From: Stachybotrys elegans
Lineage: Eukaryota; Ascomycota; Sordariomycetes; Hypocreales; Stachybotryaceae
Direction: 5' to 3'
Length of the DNA stretch: 64,000 nt
NCBI GenBank assembly: GCA_020746835.1
Contig: JAGPNK010000005.1
Location: forward strand, 1 to 64,000
Part shown: one piece after another, positions 24,573 to 58,659 of the stretch
Numbering within the stretch: the first letter of the stretch is position 1
Layout of the letters: every line of letters starts with the position of its first letter
Position numbers and translations under genes: made by a program
Notes under the pieces: model-generated
What the model saw: only the letters and a program-made list of their open reading frames with translations
The model's database searches: none
What the model was told of the DNA's origin: nothing

Positions 24573-26329
24573 ATGTCTTCTACCTCAAGCACACCTTCGC
24601 CATCATCGGGAAGCTCGACCCCGACTGGCGACTACCAGTTCTCCGCACTCGGCTGTGTCATTGAGGCGATCAACGAATCGTGCAAGCAAATCAACAACGC
24701 GCACTATGATATAGAGGGGACTGGGTCGCTGTCCGAGTTCGAAGTATTCCTCTGTAAGCTGGCGTTGGTTTGTCAGACCCAGAGATCTCCAGATACTATT
24801 ACCTCGCTCGTTTGCCTGAAGACGGCCACAGGAGGAGCCGAGTTCCTCTTCACCTCAAACGACAGGGCTGCGCCAGAGCTGGAAAAGACGAGGAGGTTTC
24901 TTGAAAAACTCTTGGCATTTGTGTCAACCAATCCAGAGAACCTGAACCCCAAGCCTTTGCAAAAACAGGTCTTGTGGCGCATCCTTGAGGCCAACTTTGA
25001 TAAACTGGTTGGCTATTTGAACTCTCTCAATTCTTCATTGGCCCTTTGCCTGGAACAGGTCGAGGCCATCACTGACCTACTCGGTAAGCAAAGGCTGTTA
25101 TTCCAAACACCCTGTGGGTGCATTGAAATATAAACTGATCCTCCCCAGATGAGGCAGCAGCAGATCAGTTGGAGCGTTTGGCAACGCGCGCTCAGTTCCC
25201 ACTGGACATGTTCTCTACAGCAAATTCGCGACAGACATGTAAGACAGCCTCCTCCATTCATTGCCCACTGTGACCTTCCCTGCTTCAAAGAATTTGCTAA
25301 CCTTTTCTCCCAGTTCTTTCTAATTGCGAAACACTCATCAAGGCCATAGAAGGGACCAAGACGACAACCATCCGGAGAGGCACCTCACTGGAATCGCACA
25401 TTGAAGCCCTCTCCCGAACGAACCCTCCCCAGGATTCTCATCATGATCCTACCCCATGGCATACGTTGCGTCACTGCCTGGGTCGAATTCATTCCTATCG
25501 AAATGCTGCAATTGTCATCACGAAGTCACCGGGGAAGTGGCCGAATCTATACAGGAACTTCCACGTGTCATATACTTCATCGTCTTCTGAGATGCGCTTG
25601 TGTCTTCCTCCCTCTAACTGGGGTTCGGATAATGTTATTCGTGCCGCCTTCCCCGGCCTCAACCTCAGTGACATCGACGAGGACATTGCTCAAGTACGAC
25701 AACTTGGGTTTGATCAGCTTCTTCAGAGTCGAATCAAGAAAATGAAGAGTGAGAAGGTCCGCGTGCACTGCGAGGTCAATCTTCACGACTATCTCGTGCA
25801 AAATGAAAGAACACGCTGCTCCGACTATTGGGACAATGCCCTCTTCATCGCAACTAGCAAGCCGCCCTGTCGGTTCTGCCATTACTACTTTCGCAGCTCG
25901 ACAAACGACTTTCGAGTACAGCCCCCGCACATGAACACCTACGTGAGATGGCGCCTCCCCGACTCCTGTGACAAGAGAATGGAGGAAGATATTGTCGAAC
26001 AGCTGCAGAGTGATATTTTGCAAATGCTTCGCAAGAAAATACCTCTATTCAGGCGAAATGACTCGAGGACCGATTCCCGTGGGGGCATCGACTCCCGCAT
26101 ATCAGGATTCCTTTCGACTGTATCTCAGGAGGTTGATGGCTTCGAAGTTGTTTCCCGGCCGGGTTCTCGGGTCACCGACGGGAGACCCTCAGCTGGGATG
26201 TATAGCCAGGTTGGGCCGCCACGTGACGAATTGGTTTACAACAACGTTGCGCCACTTGTCCACGAGAGAGGCCATTTCGGGAGCGTAGGGGATGGTCGCC
26301 CTTTTCCTGACATTGGTCGGGCACACTAA
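24573..26329 (+). CDS. OTT_1508-type deaminase-like protein, three exons
   Basis: The exons are 24573-25083, 25149-25238 and 25314-26329 (1617 nt, 538 residues). The N-terminal 175 residues are helical and unassigned. The C-terminal half carries the hallmarks of the nucleic-acid/nucleotide deaminase superfamily as seen in the fungal OTT_1508-like branch: VRVHCEVNLHDYL (His-Cys-Glu, metal ligand and proton shuttle), then about 35 residues later SKPPCRFCHYYF (Pro-Cys-x2-Cys), followed by the usual YVRWRLP strand. All three zinc-ligand positions and the Glu are present, so an active deaminase is possible. The substrate is unknown. Related fungal proteins are numerous and uncharacterised, and bacterial relatives include toxin domains. 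The last 100 residues are Arg/Ser/Asp/Gly-rich and probably disordered. The assignment comes from motif memory, not a search. Confidence 0.75.
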
Positions 26330-27260: not shown

Positions 27261-28378
27261 ATGAATTATGTACATTTGATTGAGGAGAAGCCCCTAAAGG
27301 TAGGTGTCAAACCCGCAGGAAGTGCGGTAATTGTGTCCCGCTGATCCGTTCCGTGTCTTGGCTGCAGAAAGCCTTTGTCGTGGCAACACTATGCTCAACG
27401 CTCGTTGGTACCTTTACCTCCTCAATCGCCCTCTGGGAGCGCATTAAGAGCTCCCGGAAGCAGGGAGCTCGAGACCGTGAGCAGGATCAGGAAATTCAGA
27501 AGCTTAAAGCCCAGATCGAAGAAGCCACAAAGAAGAGCGGCGCCGGACTAGCACACGACCAACTAGGCGGCTCTTTTGAGCGCTCTGGAAAGCTGATCAG
27601 TCGAGCGTTTGATGATGGCTACGAGCGACTTGGCCAGAGATTTGCAATTGGCGACACCATTACGGAGAACAAGCTGCAAGCGCAAATCATTTCACTGCAA
27701 CAAACTGTCATCAATGTCTTGCAAGATGCGCTGGTTCAAGGACGCCAACTCGACCGCATCGACATGGCCAAGCTGATAGCTGCAGCGAATGCAGCACGCG
27801 ACAACTCTCTAGATGCCCTACAGCAGCAGAAGCAACGGCAAATGATGGAGGCTCCCCCTCCTCAGCCGCCACTCTCCCCGCGGTCAAGCTTCGGTCCTCC
27901 GCGGCGAGCACCAACCATAGTATCGAATCCTTCCATTAACGCAAACGGTCTTTTCTGCAAATATAGTGTCGAGCTTCAGAGCGGACGGAGGCGGCCCTTG
28001 GCTTCTTCATTTTCGCCACGGGGAGACGGCCGATGCCCCGCATGCAATGTTCTTCTCGACGTCGGGCCAGACGACTGCTGGGGCATCGAGAAGACGCTTC
28101 GCGCACGGATAAGGGAGGGAGGTCGCGACAAGGACGTACTGGAAGAGCGCGAGTTCAAGTTTGGACAACGCCTGATGATCAAGTGCCACATGCCGGATGG
28201 AAGATTTGCTTGTGTGCTGTGCAGCAAACTCAGGGATCGAGATATTGTTTGCTCTACGGTGGACGCGCTTATCGAGCATATGTCGAGAGATCATGACGCG
28301 GATGAGTTGGAGTGCGAAGAGGATTTTGAGATTAGCTCACGGCTGCGGCCTTTGCCGAGGGCATTGCCCCCGATTTGA
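27261..28378 (+). CDS. Membrane-anchored coiled-coil protein with C-terminal zinc-finger-like motif
   Basis: Exon 1 is 27261-27299 (MNYVHLIEEKPLK) and exon 2 is 27368-28378; the 68-nt intron has GTAGGT and TGCAG ends, and the product has 349 residues. Residues 14-35 form a membrane helix (AFVVATLCSTLVGTFTSSIALW). Residues 38-65 are a charged coiled coil (REQDQEIQKLKAQIEEATKK), followed by helices with Gln-rich heptads up to about 170 and a Pro-rich linker. The C-terminal 130 residues contain CPAC...DDCW and a likely C2H2-type finger, FACVLCSKL...LIEHMSRDH. This architecture recurs in ascomycetes without an assigned function. The zinc-binding role is inferred from spacing. It lies between the deaminase-like gene and the kinase-ankyrin gene, whose 3' end faces it. 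Confidence 0.75.
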
Positions 28379-28577: not shown

Positions 28578-31500
28578 CTAGGCCGCCTCTTCTATTCCCA
28601 GTAGTTCCCTCATCTTGAATTCTGGGGAACCATGTTGGTGGCGGAGGACAATCAGCATTACAGTAATAAGTATGTGCAGCGATAGGTTGGAGCTGAGTAC
28701 CCCCAACCTAAAGTCAATGACCGATGATTGGGCAGGGTTCCTAATATGAAGCCGTGCCAAGCGATCACCAATAGCGATCCTCGCAGCTTCCGACCCACTG
28801 CCTTCGGGAAGTGCTTGGGGTGCGGAGAGAGCAAACAGGTCATATCTCAGGACGGGTGGCTTCTGGTCATGGTCGTTTTTGTCTTGAGATTGTCTCCACT
28901 CGTGATCTTCCAGCTCTTGCCACGGCCTGTTGTTGGCTTCGGAAAGTCCTCCCCTCAGCGAAAACCGGAACCAGACAGTCCTTTCGGAATCGACTCCTGC
29001 TCGCAGCACCTTGACAGGAAGTTTTTCTTCATCATTCTCCTCTGGCCCAACAACTTGAAACAAGCTATTGAGGCTCGTATGCGCGTGGAGTCCAGCAGCT
29101 AATAGGACAAACTCCCCTGGGCCAGTATAAACCCCGATCTGGACGCGTTGGTCTTCAAAGTTAATCATCATCTGAAAACCCAGCCCTCTTGACATGAGCC
29201 CTATGTGTTGTTGCAGCGAGCCCGACCCTCGCAGGTTATAGTAAGACCCGATATCCTCGGGGATTCTGAAAGGTGGCATGCCGGCATGAAGGGTTGACGC
29301 AATCAGGCGGTTCGTAGGGTCGCCAGCAATGTCGTATGATTGCACATCGTTCAAAAATCTTGCAAAGTCCGGCTGCTTGCGTGATCTTGCCGTGTACAAA
29401 AAAAGCGGAAAAAATTCGTGTCGTGTGCTCGTCGATGTTTTATCGAAGATGCTGAGGAATATTGGCATCTTGCCATGGCGGATCGCTGCGTCAAGACCCG
29501 AGTATTTGTGGGATTCCAGTAGTATATCGCCTTTGAAGTTCAAGAGACAATCTACAACCGTCTGGTTCTCCTCAATCACAGCCAGCCACAATGGAGTCAT
29601 TCTGGATTTTGTTTGAGCGTTAATGTTGGCTCCGTTCAAGAGCAATGTCTCGACGCACTCCTGATAGCCGAATAATATCGCGGTGTGTAAAGGTGTGTGT
29701 CCCTGACTATCGATTGCCTCAATTTTTGCTCCTTTTTGAATGAGCAATTGCGCAATCTTGGCGTGCCCCGTTTCTGCTGCGTTATGGAGAGCTGTCTGCT
29801 TGTATTCATCAAACGCCTCAGTGTCGCAGCCGGCATCAAGAAGAAGTTGCACCGTGGCCTCATGCCCTTCTCGTATTTCTGCATGGAGAGGTGTCCTCCC
29901 AAGAGGACCAACGGGATCAATAGCGCAACCGGCATTGAGAAGAAGGTGCACCATTGCTTTATTATCTTTTCCTGCTGCCAGATGGAGAGGTGTTCGTTTC
30001 TGGTCATCAGGAACGTCAATGTTGCAACCGGCATTAAGAAGAAGGCGTACTATTGCTTTGTTATCTTTTCCTATTGCCAGATGAAGAGGTGTTTGTTTAT
30101 GGTAATCAGGAACGTCCATATTGCAACCAGCATCAGCAAGAAGCTGAACTATGACTTCGGACGCTTTTAATGCTGCGTCATGGAGAGGCGTCTGGCCCCA
30201 CTTATCAGGAGGATTAATATCGCAATGGGCATCAATAAGAAGTTGCACCATAGTTTGATGCTCTCTGTCTGCTGCTTGATGGAGTGCTGTCTGTCCGAGA
30301 TTGTTGCGTACTTCGAGATCTAGCCCTTGATCAATGTACTGCTTCACTGTATCAAGATCTCCCCGCCATGCTGCAGAGAGGTAGGTTTCTGCATCGATTA
30401 AGTGGTTGGCGGGTCTTGTAGGGCTGGTAGGAATGCTTGGTGCGGTGGGCGGGTTTATCCCCACTGTTCCAGAGGTTTGATTAGTCTGCATTTCCTCTCC
30501 GATGGGTCGAAAAATCGTTGATCCTCGAGAGTGCTCCCCAATCTTTGTTGGCGAACTGTGGTCCTGGAATCCATTATCCGGATCTGGGTTGTGCGTATCG
30601 ACAGCAAAGGTTTCCGTTGGGATAGTTGCTAGAGAAGTCATCTCTCTAACTTCTGATTGCAAGTCGGATAAAGACGAAAGCGAGGAGGAGGGAGTTAATG
30701 TCCTGCACGTCTGGTGTCAGCCACTCCTCGCAACCGTTAGTTTATGATTACTGACCTAGCATTAGGAACAAAGCTTTTGACTTGGGTCGTGAAACGCTCT
30801 ACCCAAGTGTGATGAATGGCACGACTCCAATGTAATCTCGCTAGAGGATCAAGCAATAGTGTTTCTCGAAGGAATTCGCGACCGCCGGAACTGATATTAG
30901 CCGGTAACTGTTTGATCAAAGATATCATGTCCTCATCGGAACCTCTATTCAGATGGTCTCGCAATTTTGTCATGAGATAGAAAGCGGTGGCGCCAACAGA
31001 CCAGATATCCGCGCATCGAGAATCCACTCTGGCCGATTTTTCGTAAGAAGCTAGAAGCTCTGGAGCCATGTATGCAAGTGTACCAAGTACCTTACTTCCC
31101 TGGGTCACTGTCTTGTTGATATCAACGCTTATACCGAAGTCGGCCAGCTTGATCCACCAAGAGCCGGGACTGGTCGAGGTCGGGCAACGCTGGATCAAGA
31201 TATTCTACGCCAAAGTCAGTTGGGCCTATGCGCTCGCCTATGCAAGATGACATACCTGCGGCTTGATGTCGCGATGGGCAAATCCTGCATCGTGCATCAT
31301 TGATAGCCCTTGCAGAACCTGACTGATGACCTGTTGTGATTCTCCTTCGTCGAGAGCCGGTCGGTCTCGTAGAAAAGTATATAAATCGCCCTGGGGAAGA
31401 TATTCCATAACTAGGCATACGGTCTTGCCAAATGGATACCAGGCAATCATTCGGACGAATAGCTTCGAATACTGCTGAAATGCATTAGCAATTGAAGCAG

Positions 31501-31831
31501 CTAGCAGCAAGGAAAGAAGAACCTTCTCGTGGGAAAAGCGAATCATGGTCTCCAGCTCACGGAGATATTGTTGTCTCCCCCTGTCCTCCTCATGTCGTAC
31601 CATCTTCACCGCTCGACAATTGCCGGTCGCGGCACATTTCTGCAGGAAAACTTTCCCTTGGCCTCCTGACCCGATAGGATCCTTCATCCTTTCCCATGTT
31701 TCGAGTCGAGGAGGATCGAAAGGAGAGGCTTCGGCATCGTAAACGGCATGTGTAACTGTTCGGCGACTGACCCCATGTATCGGGAGCTTGAAGTCAAGGA
31801 CGGTGCTGGGCAACGAATCCATACCTGTCAT
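28578..31831 (-). CDS. Ser/Thr protein kinase fused to ankyrin repeats (RIPK4-like layout)
   Basis: Two large open frames form one gene once three introns are removed. The exons are 31831-31523, 31474-31256, 31204-30756 and 30702-28578 (3102 nt, 1033 residues; an ATG at 31927 would add 32). The kinase domain covers about residues 35-330 and looks catalytically complete: IGSGGQGKVF, Lys in RAVKMV, Glu in LRELE, HRDIKPQN, KLADFG and YMAPE. A Ser/Thr-rich linker leads to about ten ankyrin repeats (TPLHLA and TALHNA cores) at about 425-745, two of them nearly identical. The C-terminal 250 residues are of unknown type, with a hydrophobic helix near the end. The key join is NAR/TLTPSS over the intron 30703-30755, with a CTAAC branch point. 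It diverges from the HeLo-like/pseudokinase gene; a shared pathway is inferred. Confidence 0.87.
29941..30138 (-). repeat. Two nearly identical ankyrin units (99 bp each)
   Basis: Two adjacent 99-bp units encode versions of KDNKA(I/M)V(R/H)LLLNAGC differing at few positions. The flanking ankyrin units are much more diverged, so this pair is a recent duplication or has been homogenised. Confidence 0.7.
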
Positions 31832-32130
31832 CGAGTATGCGCAAGAGAGATGCGGAACCGTGTTCCGAGCAGACGCGGGAGGCGGGCACACAACCCTTAC
31901 GTTGGCCAGACTCAGGGGCCCGCGCATACCCTTGGCAGGCCGACAGCCAACTGCATGATGCTGGCGAATGAGCAGCCTGGGGCCACGATATTATGTGGGG
32001 GGAGGGGGGCGGGGGACCATAACGCGTATATTTACCTCGGACCCCCAAATGACTGTGTGGTGACAATTACTAACTTCCAACAGCAGGGCTGTCTTCACCT
32101 GTAGCACCTGGGAAAAGAAACAAAAGAAAA
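31832..32130. promoter_or_regulatory. Shared bidirectional promoter of the kinase-ankyrin and HeLo-like genes
   Basis: Only 299 bases separate the two divergent ATGs at 31831 (minus) and 32131 (plus). A G-rich run (GGGGGGAGGGGGGCGGGGG) lies at 31996-32014. Co-regulation is inferred from the layout; if the kinase gene starts at 31927 the space is about 200 bases. Confidence 0.6.
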
Positions 32131-33630
32131 ATGGCTGAGCTGGCCATGGGGATCATAGGCCTTACTGGCGCAGCTGAGCTATGTATCAAGTAAGTGCGAG
32201 AAATCATAAAGCGACCCTGATTAACTTGAGCCAGAGGTGGCAAGGCATTAGCCAAAGCATCGCAGGATTATCGCCACGCCGACGCCAAGCTTGACGAGTT
32301 ATGTGCGAGGATCGAGGTTTGCTGGTTGCGCACTTCATCCCAGCTGGAGGTAGCTCAGGCCCTCGAGGCTACCATGACAGAGGACCAGAGAAACATCCAA
32401 CAGCAGATTCTTCGTATCTTGTATTCCAAATTGGAGACTGCCATCATGGCACTTTCGCAGATTGACAAGCACTTCAAAAACGGGAAGCAGAAAAGGCTGT
32501 ACTTCGTTGCTTTGAAAGACAAGCTTGAAGAAGCAGTGGGAGAGCTTGAATCCTGGCATAAGAGATTTGAACCAAGTTGGTTCGAGCTGATCAAAACTGC
32601 TCCCCCCACAGTTGCCGGTGCACTCCAGCGCATCACCGTATCGGCACCCAAAGAAGCTGCAGAGCCAAGCCGAGACGCCTTGAAGTTTCGACGAGCCTTT
32701 GAACCCATCAGAATGCAAAGCTCCGTGCTGATCGCAAGAAAAGTCCTCGAAGGCTTGGAGATATCTGCTCTCCCCCACAGCATGGTGCATGTAGCCAGAG
32801 ATCCCGAGGACGGAAAATGCCATATTGTGGACACGGTTTCTACGGAAGCTGTCACGATGCAGGATGCCAAGGCCCTGGCTAATCGACTACGCGAGTCCAA
32901 CCCTGGGACATTCGGAACCATGAGATGCAAGGGTATCATCCGGTATCCTGAATCTTCGGCCATGGCCTTTGTATTTCGTATCCCCGACGGATATGATGCA
33001 GTCCGCAGTCTTCGACATCTTCTTACCGGAGAAGTACCAGAGTCGCTGACTATTCGACTGGAAATAGCTCGCCAGCTTGTGAATGCGGTCTACTACATAC
33101 ACCTATACGAGTTTGTGCACAAGAATATCTGCCCAGAGACAATACTCTGCCTGGGCTCGACCAAGGACAGTAATGTGGCTGGCGGATTAATGTGTTGCCT
33201 CATCGGTTTCCAGGTACTTCGCCATATAGACGGAAGAACGAATACAGGAAAACTAGGCGACAAATTTGACCTGTACCAACATCCGACAAGGCGAGGGTCA
33301 GACAAGTCTCCGTTCGTGATGCAGCATGACATTTATAGTCTTGGTGTGTGTCTTCTCGAAGTCGGTCTCTGGAAGTCGCTGCTGCAATTTGATCAAGGAA
33401 CATGCAGCCCAGAGCAACTGCAGCAACAGATGGTCAGCTTAAGTCGGGGGAAGCTGAGAGCGGAAATGGGTGATAAATACAGCAAGGTCGTTGAGACTTG
33501 CCTCACTTGTCTCGATTCAGATAATGTTGACTTTGGGGATCCTGAAGATTTTACAGATGGTGAAGGGGTCGAGGTTGGATCAAGATATGTTGAGAAGGTA
33601 ATTAGCATCATCAGCACCATCTCTTTGTAG
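32131..33630 (+). CDS. HeLo-like domain plus pseudokinase (MLKL-like layout)
   Basis: Exon 1 (32131-32189) encodes MAELAMGIIGLTGAAELCIK and joins over a 45-nt intron (32190-32234) to exon 2 (32235-33630): 1455 nt, 484 residues. The first 130 residues are all helical, starting with a Gly/Ala-rich hydrophobic helix and containing VCWLRTSSQLE, as in the HeLo/HeLo-like N-domains of fungal cell-death proteins; these act by inserting an N-terminal helix into membranes. Residues about 190-480 follow a kinase C-lobe without its catalytic residues: the HRDxxxxN loop reads HKNICPET, DFG is replaced by LIGF, and HDIYSLGVCLLEVGLW matches helix F. It is therefore a pseudokinase. The same order of domains occurs in animal MLKL. 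Its neighbour across 299 bases is an apparently active kinase-ankyrin protein. Function is inferred. Confidence 0.8.
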
Positions 33631-57504: not shown

Positions 57505-58659
57505 ATGGCCAATCCCGATCGCAGCAAACGTCATCTTGCACACCTTCACAAATACACTGGGCAAAAGTCCAACTGCATCCCGCCTTCGCTCTCTCAAATT
57601 TATCTTATACATCTAGAAATAATGGGACGGACTGAGCCGTCAACGAGGCCACCGCCCGCCGCTGCTCGGCGCGATGCCCGAGCCAAAAGGGCCAAGGCCA
57701 CCATTAACCAGGTCATCCCGTCTCTCCTCACCACCCACCCTCGTGCCAAAAACGGCATCGACGCAGCGAGGCTAATTGTCGATATCCCTCCGAATAATTC
57801 GAGCTCTGGTTCGAAGGGTACGCCTGGCGGTCAAGACAGCGCTCGGCGCAATAGGCTCATGGTCGCCGACACGCTGACCGCTGCTCGCCGTGCGATGGCC
57901 TCATCCGAAGCACCTGGCCAGGATGTACCCAAGACTGCCATTTTGAACATGGCATCGCCGCTATCGCCCGGTGGCGGCTTCTTGAATGGCGCAAGCAGTC
58001 AGGAGGAATCCCTCTGCATGCGCACGACGCTATTGCCCTCGCTGAAGGACGAGTACTATCGGCTCCCAGAGCTCGGGGCCATATTCAGTCCCGACATCAT
58101 GGTGTTTCGAGATGAAGACTCGTACGAAATATTACCAAAGGGAGAGCGATGGTTCGTGCACTGCATCAGCGCTGCTATGCTACGGAACCCCGAGCTGGAT
58201 CACGACGATATGGGGAGGGCTACGTACGCCAATGACCAGGATCGTCATGTAGCGATGCAGAAAATGAGGATGGTGATGCGCATATGCGAGGCTCAGGAAA
58301 TCAAGAAGGTGGTATTGGGGGCATGGGGCTGCGGCGCATACGGGAACCCCATCAATGAGATTGCAGCGGCCTGGAAGAAAGTTCTCATGCCCCGTCGGGA
58401 CCCCAAGGGCAAGGCAAAAAAGGAGACATGGCCAGGAGTCGAGGAGGTCATTTTTGCCATCAAGGATCCCGGCATGGCGAGTGCATTTGCAGTAGCATTT
58501 GGGGATGGGCTGGAAGAGGCGGAGGAGGAGGATGGGGAGGAGCAGGAAGCGGGTTCAGTCGATGAGGAAGAGCTTGGGGTGGACGATCAGGAGAGTGAAC
58601 ATGCAAAAGTGCTGGCGCGAATTGAAGAAATGCGGCAGCGACTTGCGAGGACCGCATGA
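57505..58659 (+). CDS. Poly(ADP-ribose) glycohydrolase, microbial-type PARG catalytic domain
   Basis: A single exon of 384 residues from the ATG at 57505; the ATG at 57622 (MGRTEPS) would give 345 and begins closer to the conserved domain. The PARG signature GGG-x8-QEE is present exactly as GGGFLNGASSQEE, with both catalytic Glu. It is preceded by AILNMASPLSPGG and followed by LCMRTTLLPSL and the macrodomain-like LGAWGCGAYGNP (diphosphate loop). It removes ADP-ribose chains from proteins or hydrolyses related ADP-ribosyl bonds. A basic Arg/Lys/Ala-rich N-terminus (DARAKRAKA) may direct it to the nucleus. The C-terminal 60 residues are acidic (EEAEEEDGEEQEAG) and end in a short helix. Confidence 0.9.
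   Translation: MANPDRSKRHLAHLHKYTGQKSNCIPPSLSQIYLIHLEIMGRTEPSTRPPPAAARRDARAKRAKATINQVIPSLLTTHPRAKNGIDAARLIVDIPPNNSSSGSKGTPGGQDSARRNRLMVADTLTAARRAMASSEAPGQDVPKTAILNMASPLSPGGGFLNGASSQEESLCMRTTLLPSLKDEYYRLPELGAIFSPDIMVFRDEDSYEILPKGERWFVHCISAAMLRNPELDHDDMGRATYANDQDRHVAMQKMRMVMRICEAQEIKKVVLGAWGCGAYGNPINEIAAAWKKVLMPRRDPKGKAKKETWPGVEEVIFAIKDPGMASAFAVAFGDGLEEAEEEDGEEQEAGSVDEEELGVDDQESEHAKVLARIEEMRQRLARTA

Follow-up and report, generated by a model that had tools for sequence, protein, structure and literature searches.

A Divergent Kinase-Ankyrin/HeLo-Pseudokinase Gene Pair of Stachybotrys elegans as a Candidate Fungal Cell-Death Module of RIPK-MLKL-like Design

Introduction

The four-helix bundle (4HB)/HeLo killer domain is common to animals, plants, and fungi, and sections of a 2025 review report that the genes of fungal death pathways often lie in clusters of two or three, that the HeLo systems treated there are triggered by amyloids or a built-in NOD-like receptor (NLR), and that gasdermins lie beside proteases carrying WD40, ANK, or TPR tails (PMC12881547). 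The same sections place some HELL domains in proteins with a kinase or pseudokinase domain and mention MLKL homologues in plants. Here, we describe a pair of divergent genes in the window, i.e., the whole 64,000-nucleotide stretch analyzed, which covers the initial 64 kb of a contig of 2.46 Mb in the 43.4-Mb genome of Stachybotrys elegans (Hypocreales). One gene encodes a protein kinase fused to ankyrin repeats (kinase-ankyrin), and the other a HeLo-like helical domain followed by a catalytically dead kinase domain (called HeLo-pseudokinase for brevity).

The pair resembles RIPK3-MLKL in that a complete kinase is accompanied by a protein with a helical bundle, a brace, and a dead kinase, and in the conserved Thr at the activation-loop position of the latter. 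Unlike in RIPK3-MLKL, the fungal kinases end in ankyrin or other tails, a pattern scan gave no RHIM core in them, and the genes lie head to head; the fungal kinase and executioner are tied by gene linkage only, and phospho-relay and lysis are putative. To our knowledge, the kinase-to-pseudokinase switch is an animal feature. Plant MLKL (6ka4, AtMLKL3) shares the N-terminal helical bundle fused to a pseudokinase, and we know of no sensor kinase linked to it. In RIPK4 and ANKK1, a kinase precedes ankyrin repeats, the same order as in the window kinase; the likeness is one of domain order only, and tails differ among the fungal relatives.

In the HET-S/NWD2 and HELLP/PNT1 amyloid-NLR pairs, the sensor also adjoins a HeLo-type executioner gene (sections of PMC12881547), but in the present pair the putative sensor is a kinase protein in which neither NACHT nor NB-ARC was matched, and the executioner ends in a pseudokinase. 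Fungal gasdermin/protease clusters likewise set an enzyme with a WD40/ANK/TPR tail beside a membrane executioner gene (sections of PMC12881547), whereas the present pair has a kinase instead of the protease and a HeLo-pseudokinase instead of the gasdermin. The same executioner architecture is found in fungal HeLo-DUF7580 and HeLo ‘Pkc-like’ proteins, and HeLo plus a kinase-like domain in a single protein is already in print (figure legend in PMC12881547; Table 5 in PMC3689799). What sets the present pair apart is the linked active kinase: no description of a linked active kinase/HeLo-pseudokinase pair was found in the open-licence papers searched, including passages of PMC10197012, PMC12258605, PMC9815663, PMC4835503, PMC7849911, and PMC5485727 (preprints lie outside this scope, and absence is unproven). 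An earlier interpretation of the window made without database searches (the sequence-only reading) knew of no described fungal system with this pairing; within these papers the statement holds for the pair.

Catalytic Motifs and Gene Models of the Pair

The sequence-only reading took the kinase to be apparently active and fused to about ten ankyrin repeats, and the motifs and Pfam matches agree with a catalytically complete kinase fused to such repeats. All four motifs are present, i.e., AVK (the VAIK motif), HRDIKPQN, DFG, and APE; the two kinase halves matched PF00069 with 79 and 59 bits, and ankyrin PF12796 matched six stretches with 266 bits. The complete VAIK/HRDIKPQN/DFG/APE set was also found in 10 of 11 relatives scanned, the lysine pattern not being found in P0254. 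In the Pfam scan, the kinase-ankyrin protein had no NACHT or NB-ARC match, and neither gene of the pair matched a gasdermin or protease. A RHIM core was found in none of 14 proteins scanned with a pattern for it, and a tetrad that the window kinase has at 843 is absent from the orthologue described below.

The partner had been said to have a kinase-like domain devoid of catalytic residues, and the homologues agree. HKN replaces HRD, and GF replaces the DF of DFG; the HRD Asp is lost in 91 of 92 aligned homologues and the DFG Asp, where G stands instead, in all 91 that are ungapped there. No beta-3 Lys is conserved in the predicted strand 215-222, as judged from the homologue alignment and the AlphaFold2 model. 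With these three residues lost, the domain is a pseudokinase, and its Pfam kinase score (23.7) falls under the cut-off of 31.7. Aligned with 22 homologues that represent several genera, the protein had 37-61% identity, and activation-loop Thr355 is T or S in 91/91 ungapped homologues.

Splice calling gave a HeLo-pseudokinase of 484 amino acids, 100% identical to the deposited S. elegans protein B0I35DRAFT_427435 (P0001). The kinase-ankyrin gene was called with four exons (introns 31522-31475, 31255-31205, and 30755-30703; alternative starts 31831 and 31927) and encodes 1030 amino acids, with a linker between the kinase and the ankyrin repeats. Its Sarocladium strictum orthologue, a kinase plus ankyrin protein of 901 amino acids, is alignable from residue 1 (identity of 52% in the kinase part and 26% through most of the remainder), and this supports the fused gene model. 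At intron 1 the orthologue is shorter by one residue, so that an acceptor 3 bases further on is suggested. No Stachybotrys entry for the kinase-ankyrin protein was among the named matches (120 listed), and the model therefore rests on splice calls and the orthologue. The start codons of the two genes are 308 bases apart, and not separated by 299 bases as first read.

Recurrence of the Pair and Linkage in Other Species

A genome search with the HeLo-pseudokinase gave 13 matches at 11 loci, and a divergent kinase lies within 2.6 kb at 5 of the 11 related loci, one of them a decayed relic; the 2.6-kb limit was chosen after the distances were seen. Four of the five were found with the HeLo-pseudokinase query, i.e., the window, C61:0.91 Mb, C5, and C1. 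At C61:0.91 Mb (L032:2965-7815), a second intact-looking divergent pair has start codons 488 bases apart, a HeLo-pseudokinase of 554 amino acids, and a kinase with introns at the same places as in the window kinase (by eye); behind this kinase comes a weakly beta-propeller-like tail, whose WD40-like matches stay below their cut-offs. The C5 and C1 pairs have start codons ~1.05 kb and ~250 bases apart, and their kinases (93 and 92 bits, respectively) are followed by ankyrin. The fifth pair, at C61:2.05 Mb (L040, C61:2048500-2058400), was detected only with the C5 kinase query; both partners look decayed, and an ankyrin reading frame is close by; such joint decay would fit mutual dependence. Among the other loci, C34 has a kinase-ankyrin gene in tandem ~5 kb away, C12 (HeLo-DUF7580) has an unrelated kinase alongside in tandem, and C4, C1:3.97 Mb, C16, and C2 have no neighbouring kinase. 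A HET domain reading frame (L034:7692-8522; PF06985, 95 bits) lies near the paralogue on C4.

The chance of at least 4 of the 10 other loci having a divergent kinase neighbour was 3e-8, rising to 6e-6 if kinases were four times as many as detected. No listed kinase lies within 2.6 kb of 11 other HeLo loci or 18 other DUF7580 loci, the nearest being 7.4 kb from a HeLo locus on C7. In the reverse search, the C5 kinase had 10 further matches, and three of them, the two top-scoring ones (C1 and C34) among these, were near a HeLo-pseudokinase, with a chance of 3e-6 for linkage within 6 kb.

Linkage elsewhere was judged from protein listings, by exact size match of the source contigs and by locus tags. 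Kinase and HeLo-pseudokinase were on contigs of identical size in five species: S. strictum (3077311 bases), Trichoderma sp. CBMAI-0020 (2016389 bases; tags 007734 and 007756), T. atroviride (4072028 bases; consecutive tags 009946 and 009947), Diaporthe australafricana (176050 bases; consecutive tags 010056 and 010055), and Fusarium phyllophilum (50002 bases); jittered sizes gave 0.004 matches on average. The consecutive tags suggest that the T. atroviride and D. australafricana partners are neighbours; the other three matches indicate linkage only, and none of the five gives gene orientation. Head-to-head pairing, whose conservation the sequence-only reading had proposed as a check, recurs in the S. 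elegans genome; the other species show linkage, not orientation.

The kinases linked to a HeLo-pseudokinase carry ankyrin, WD40-like (weak), FYVE (37 bits), or Ras-like (69 bits; the gene model may be a fusion) tails, and TPR and true WD40 tails were seen in kinase relatives not assigned as paired or unpaired. The ankyrin tail is one of several tail types in this kinase family.

Co-Divergence of the Partners

Trees of 21 kinases and 13 HeLo-pseudokinases had groups in common: the window with Sarocladium, the Fusarium sequences together, and C61 with Diaporthe and Trichoderma. In the kinase tree, C5, C1, and C34 form their own group (98/96), and in the HeLo tree their counterparts fall with C12 and L035 without resolution; deep joins are unsure because the branches are long. 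Percent identities of kinase, HeLo-pseudokinase, and kinase tail were, respectively, 85, 84, and 63 for CBMAI-0020 against T. asperellum (whose two proteins come from different assemblies); 59, 60, and 32 for CBMAI-0020 and 61, 59, and 24 for T. asperellum against Diaporthe, the Trichoderma and Diaporthe tails not being clearly homologous; and 53, 57.5, and 26 for Sarocladium against the window. For F. phyllophilum, kinase and tail gave 60 and 37 against F. graminearum, and 55 and 31 against F. lateritium. In these alignments, kinase and HeLo-pseudokinase diverge in step and the kinase tail faster, the pattern that would be expected if the signalling pair stays fixed and its sensor changes.

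Domain Plan and Proposed Mechanism

The AlphaFold2 model of the HeLo-pseudokinase (predicted local distance difference test score of 86.2) shows four long helices (residues 11-30, 37-66, 69-99, and 103-140), two short ones within 145-173, and a kinase fold. The order of helical bundle, brace, and pseudokinase is the MLKL plan, the likeness being one of domain order. A profile of 89 N-domains compared with 15 HeLo domains of the same genome gave a score of 52 (P 6.5e-8), with shuffled, block-shuffled, and reversed controls scoring 11-22. PF14479 (HeLo) has no match in the window protein itself; it is over cut-off (23.2) ahead of the related pseudokinase half at C5 (56 bits), C1 (73 bits), C12, and C34, and kinship with these loci seems a better argument for HeLo than the profile signal or the fold search.

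The pair, its recurrence, its dead and complete active sites, and its domain order are established here, and we consider it somewhat probable that the pair functions as a two-gene sensor-kinase/executioner module of fungal immune-type cell death, with a RIPK-MLKL-like design. This part of the sequence-only reading gains from the complete kinase with a dead-kinase partner, the repeated divergent pairing, the five-species linkage, and the MLKL-like order, and it stays conditional with regard to function. The repeat tail would recognize a non-self or damage cue, and the kinase would then phosphorylate the pseudokinase activation loop, with Thr355 as the best candidate. Phosphorylation would release the HeLo-like bundle, whose N-terminal hydrophobic helix may insert in the plasma membrane and kill the hyphal compartment. 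This would be a direct kinase-to-pseudokinase relay, like that of RIPK3-MLKL, in the place that an NLR and an amyloid take in the fungal systems described.

A broader proposal, which we put forward tentatively and would not quite call probable, is that filamentous fungi have a multicopy modular RIPK-MLKL-type axis, in which the pseudokinase of a linked HeLo executioner is the direct substrate of a kinase with exchangeable sensor tails (ankyrin, WD40-like, FYVE, perhaps Ras-like and TPR), and its phosphorylation kills the cell. As part of the same tentative claim, it would be a third type of fungal cell-death cluster, beside NLR/amyloid/HeLo and protease/gasdermin. Fungi may possess a counterpart of their own to the necroptosis switch by which animal cells are killed, and the pair lets one test, in easily manipulated organisms, whether phospho-triggered necroptosis predates animals or arose twice; the differing tails also provide candidate non-self sensors, a new family without NLRs.

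Three observations weigh against a RIPK-MLKL-like module. The HeLo profile signal lies within the first 28 residues (a putative membrane helix) and is gone without approximately the first 35. The fold search with the truncated N-domain gave nothing significant, and neither MLKL nor HET-S, the comparison suggested by the sequence-only reading, was among the matches listed. Finally, 8 of 13 species in both lists were unmatched (by eye), including F. lateritium within one assembly. Foldseek of the full model had plant MLKL 6ka4 (AtMLKL3) at rank 26, and with an alignment root-mean-square deviation of 17.1 a shared arrangement is unproven. Because Pfam was negative, the profile signal sits in helix 1, the fold search had no match, and kinship was positive, we use the wording HeLo-like rather than proven HeLo; a HeLo-type N-terminus of the window protein is plausible.

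Alternative Explanations

A guard or antitoxin arrangement, in which the kinase keeps the HeLo-pseudokinase inactive and its loss or inhibition, by a pathogen or nuclear mismatch after fusion, frees the killer, is unlikely. The tight divergent linkage and co-divergence would suit a killer/inhibitor pair equally well, and both partners look decayed at the relic locus, but a pure inhibitor would not need a fast-diverging tail, and the 6 of 11 related loci without a divergent kinase are awkward if the inhibitor is obligatory, except where it could act from another site.

It is distinctly unlikely that the pair forms a non-death signalling complex, in which the helical domain would serve as anchor to a membrane or scaffold and the pseudokinase as an allosteric partner of the kinase, a role that many pseudokinases have. 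Such a complex would agree with the missing Pfam HeLo call in the window clade and the missing structural match of the truncated N-domain. However, the C5 and C1 pairs have over-cut-off HeLo domains in the same place, and in Podospora incompatibility two HeLo proteins that carry a ‘Pkc-like’ domain were induced, with maximum fold changes of 6.55 and 4.31 (PMC3689799).

We regard as very unlikely that the pseudokinase is a decoy baiting pathogen factors that attack kinases, with the neighbouring kinase as a co-receptor and not a direct trigger. Plant pseudokinase decoys are a known precedent, and the dead kinase domain does adjoin a catalytically complete kinase; the 37-61% identity to 22 homologues and the pace kept with the kinase domain are, however, not what an arms race over the surface of a bait would look like. 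Incidental linkage through a shared promoter or local duplication, without common function, is scarcely credible: chance neighbours do occur, as with the unrelated kinase at C12, and most species in both lists had no common contig, but the recurrence (3e-8 to 6e-6), the five other-species matches against 0.004 expected, and the partner-specific groups in both trees disfavour it.

Feature Coordinates and Neighbouring Reading Frames

Table 1. Features of the gene pair, with positions in the 64,000-nucleotide window.
Feature	Position	Strand	Basis
HeLo-pseudokinase exon 1 (first 19 codons + two bases; putative membrane helix)	32131..32189	+	Identical to P0001
HeLo-pseudokinase exon 2 with stop	32235..33630	+	Splice calls; identical to P0001
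HeLo-like helical bundle, residues 1-140, intron inside	32131..32595	+	AlphaFold2 helices; HeLo profile match carried by helix 1
Two brace-like helices, residues 145-173	32608..32694	+	AlphaFold2 model
Pseudokinase domain, residues ~190-484	32743..33627	+	Pfam scan, AlphaFold2 model
HKN at HRD position, residues 315-317	33118..33126	+	Catalytic Asp lost, 91/92 aligned homologues
GF at DF of DFG, residues 344-345	33205..33210	+	G in 91/91 ungapped homologues
Thr355, activation-loop position, candidate phospho-switch (putative role)	33238..33240	+	T/S in 91/91 ungapped homologues
Kinase-ankyrin gene, three introns	28578..31822	-	Splice calls, Pfam, Sarocladium orthologue
Catalytically complete kinase domain, approximate, introns inside	30756..31690	-	PF00069 match 30800-31684; motifs
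Ankyrin repeats, approximate span	29439..30365	-	Pfam
C-terminal region without Pfam match, partly alignable to Sarocladium orthologue	28578..29438	-	Pfam, alignment
Gap between start codons, 308 bases; possible shared promoter	31823..32130	.	Splice calls

A 341-amino-acid reading frame without Pfam match over cut-off (window 27353-28378) and the kinase-ankyrin gene converge at the 3' end of the latter. Elsewhere in the window, a reading frame at 25466-26329 matched an OTT_1508-like deaminase (58 bits), and a Microbial-type PARG catalytic domain was found at 57505-58659 (69 bits). Genome-wide, PF17111 (PigL_N) had 30 matches (C7, C46, C19, and others), 25 of them over cut-off, with several clustered at C7:618-624 kb.

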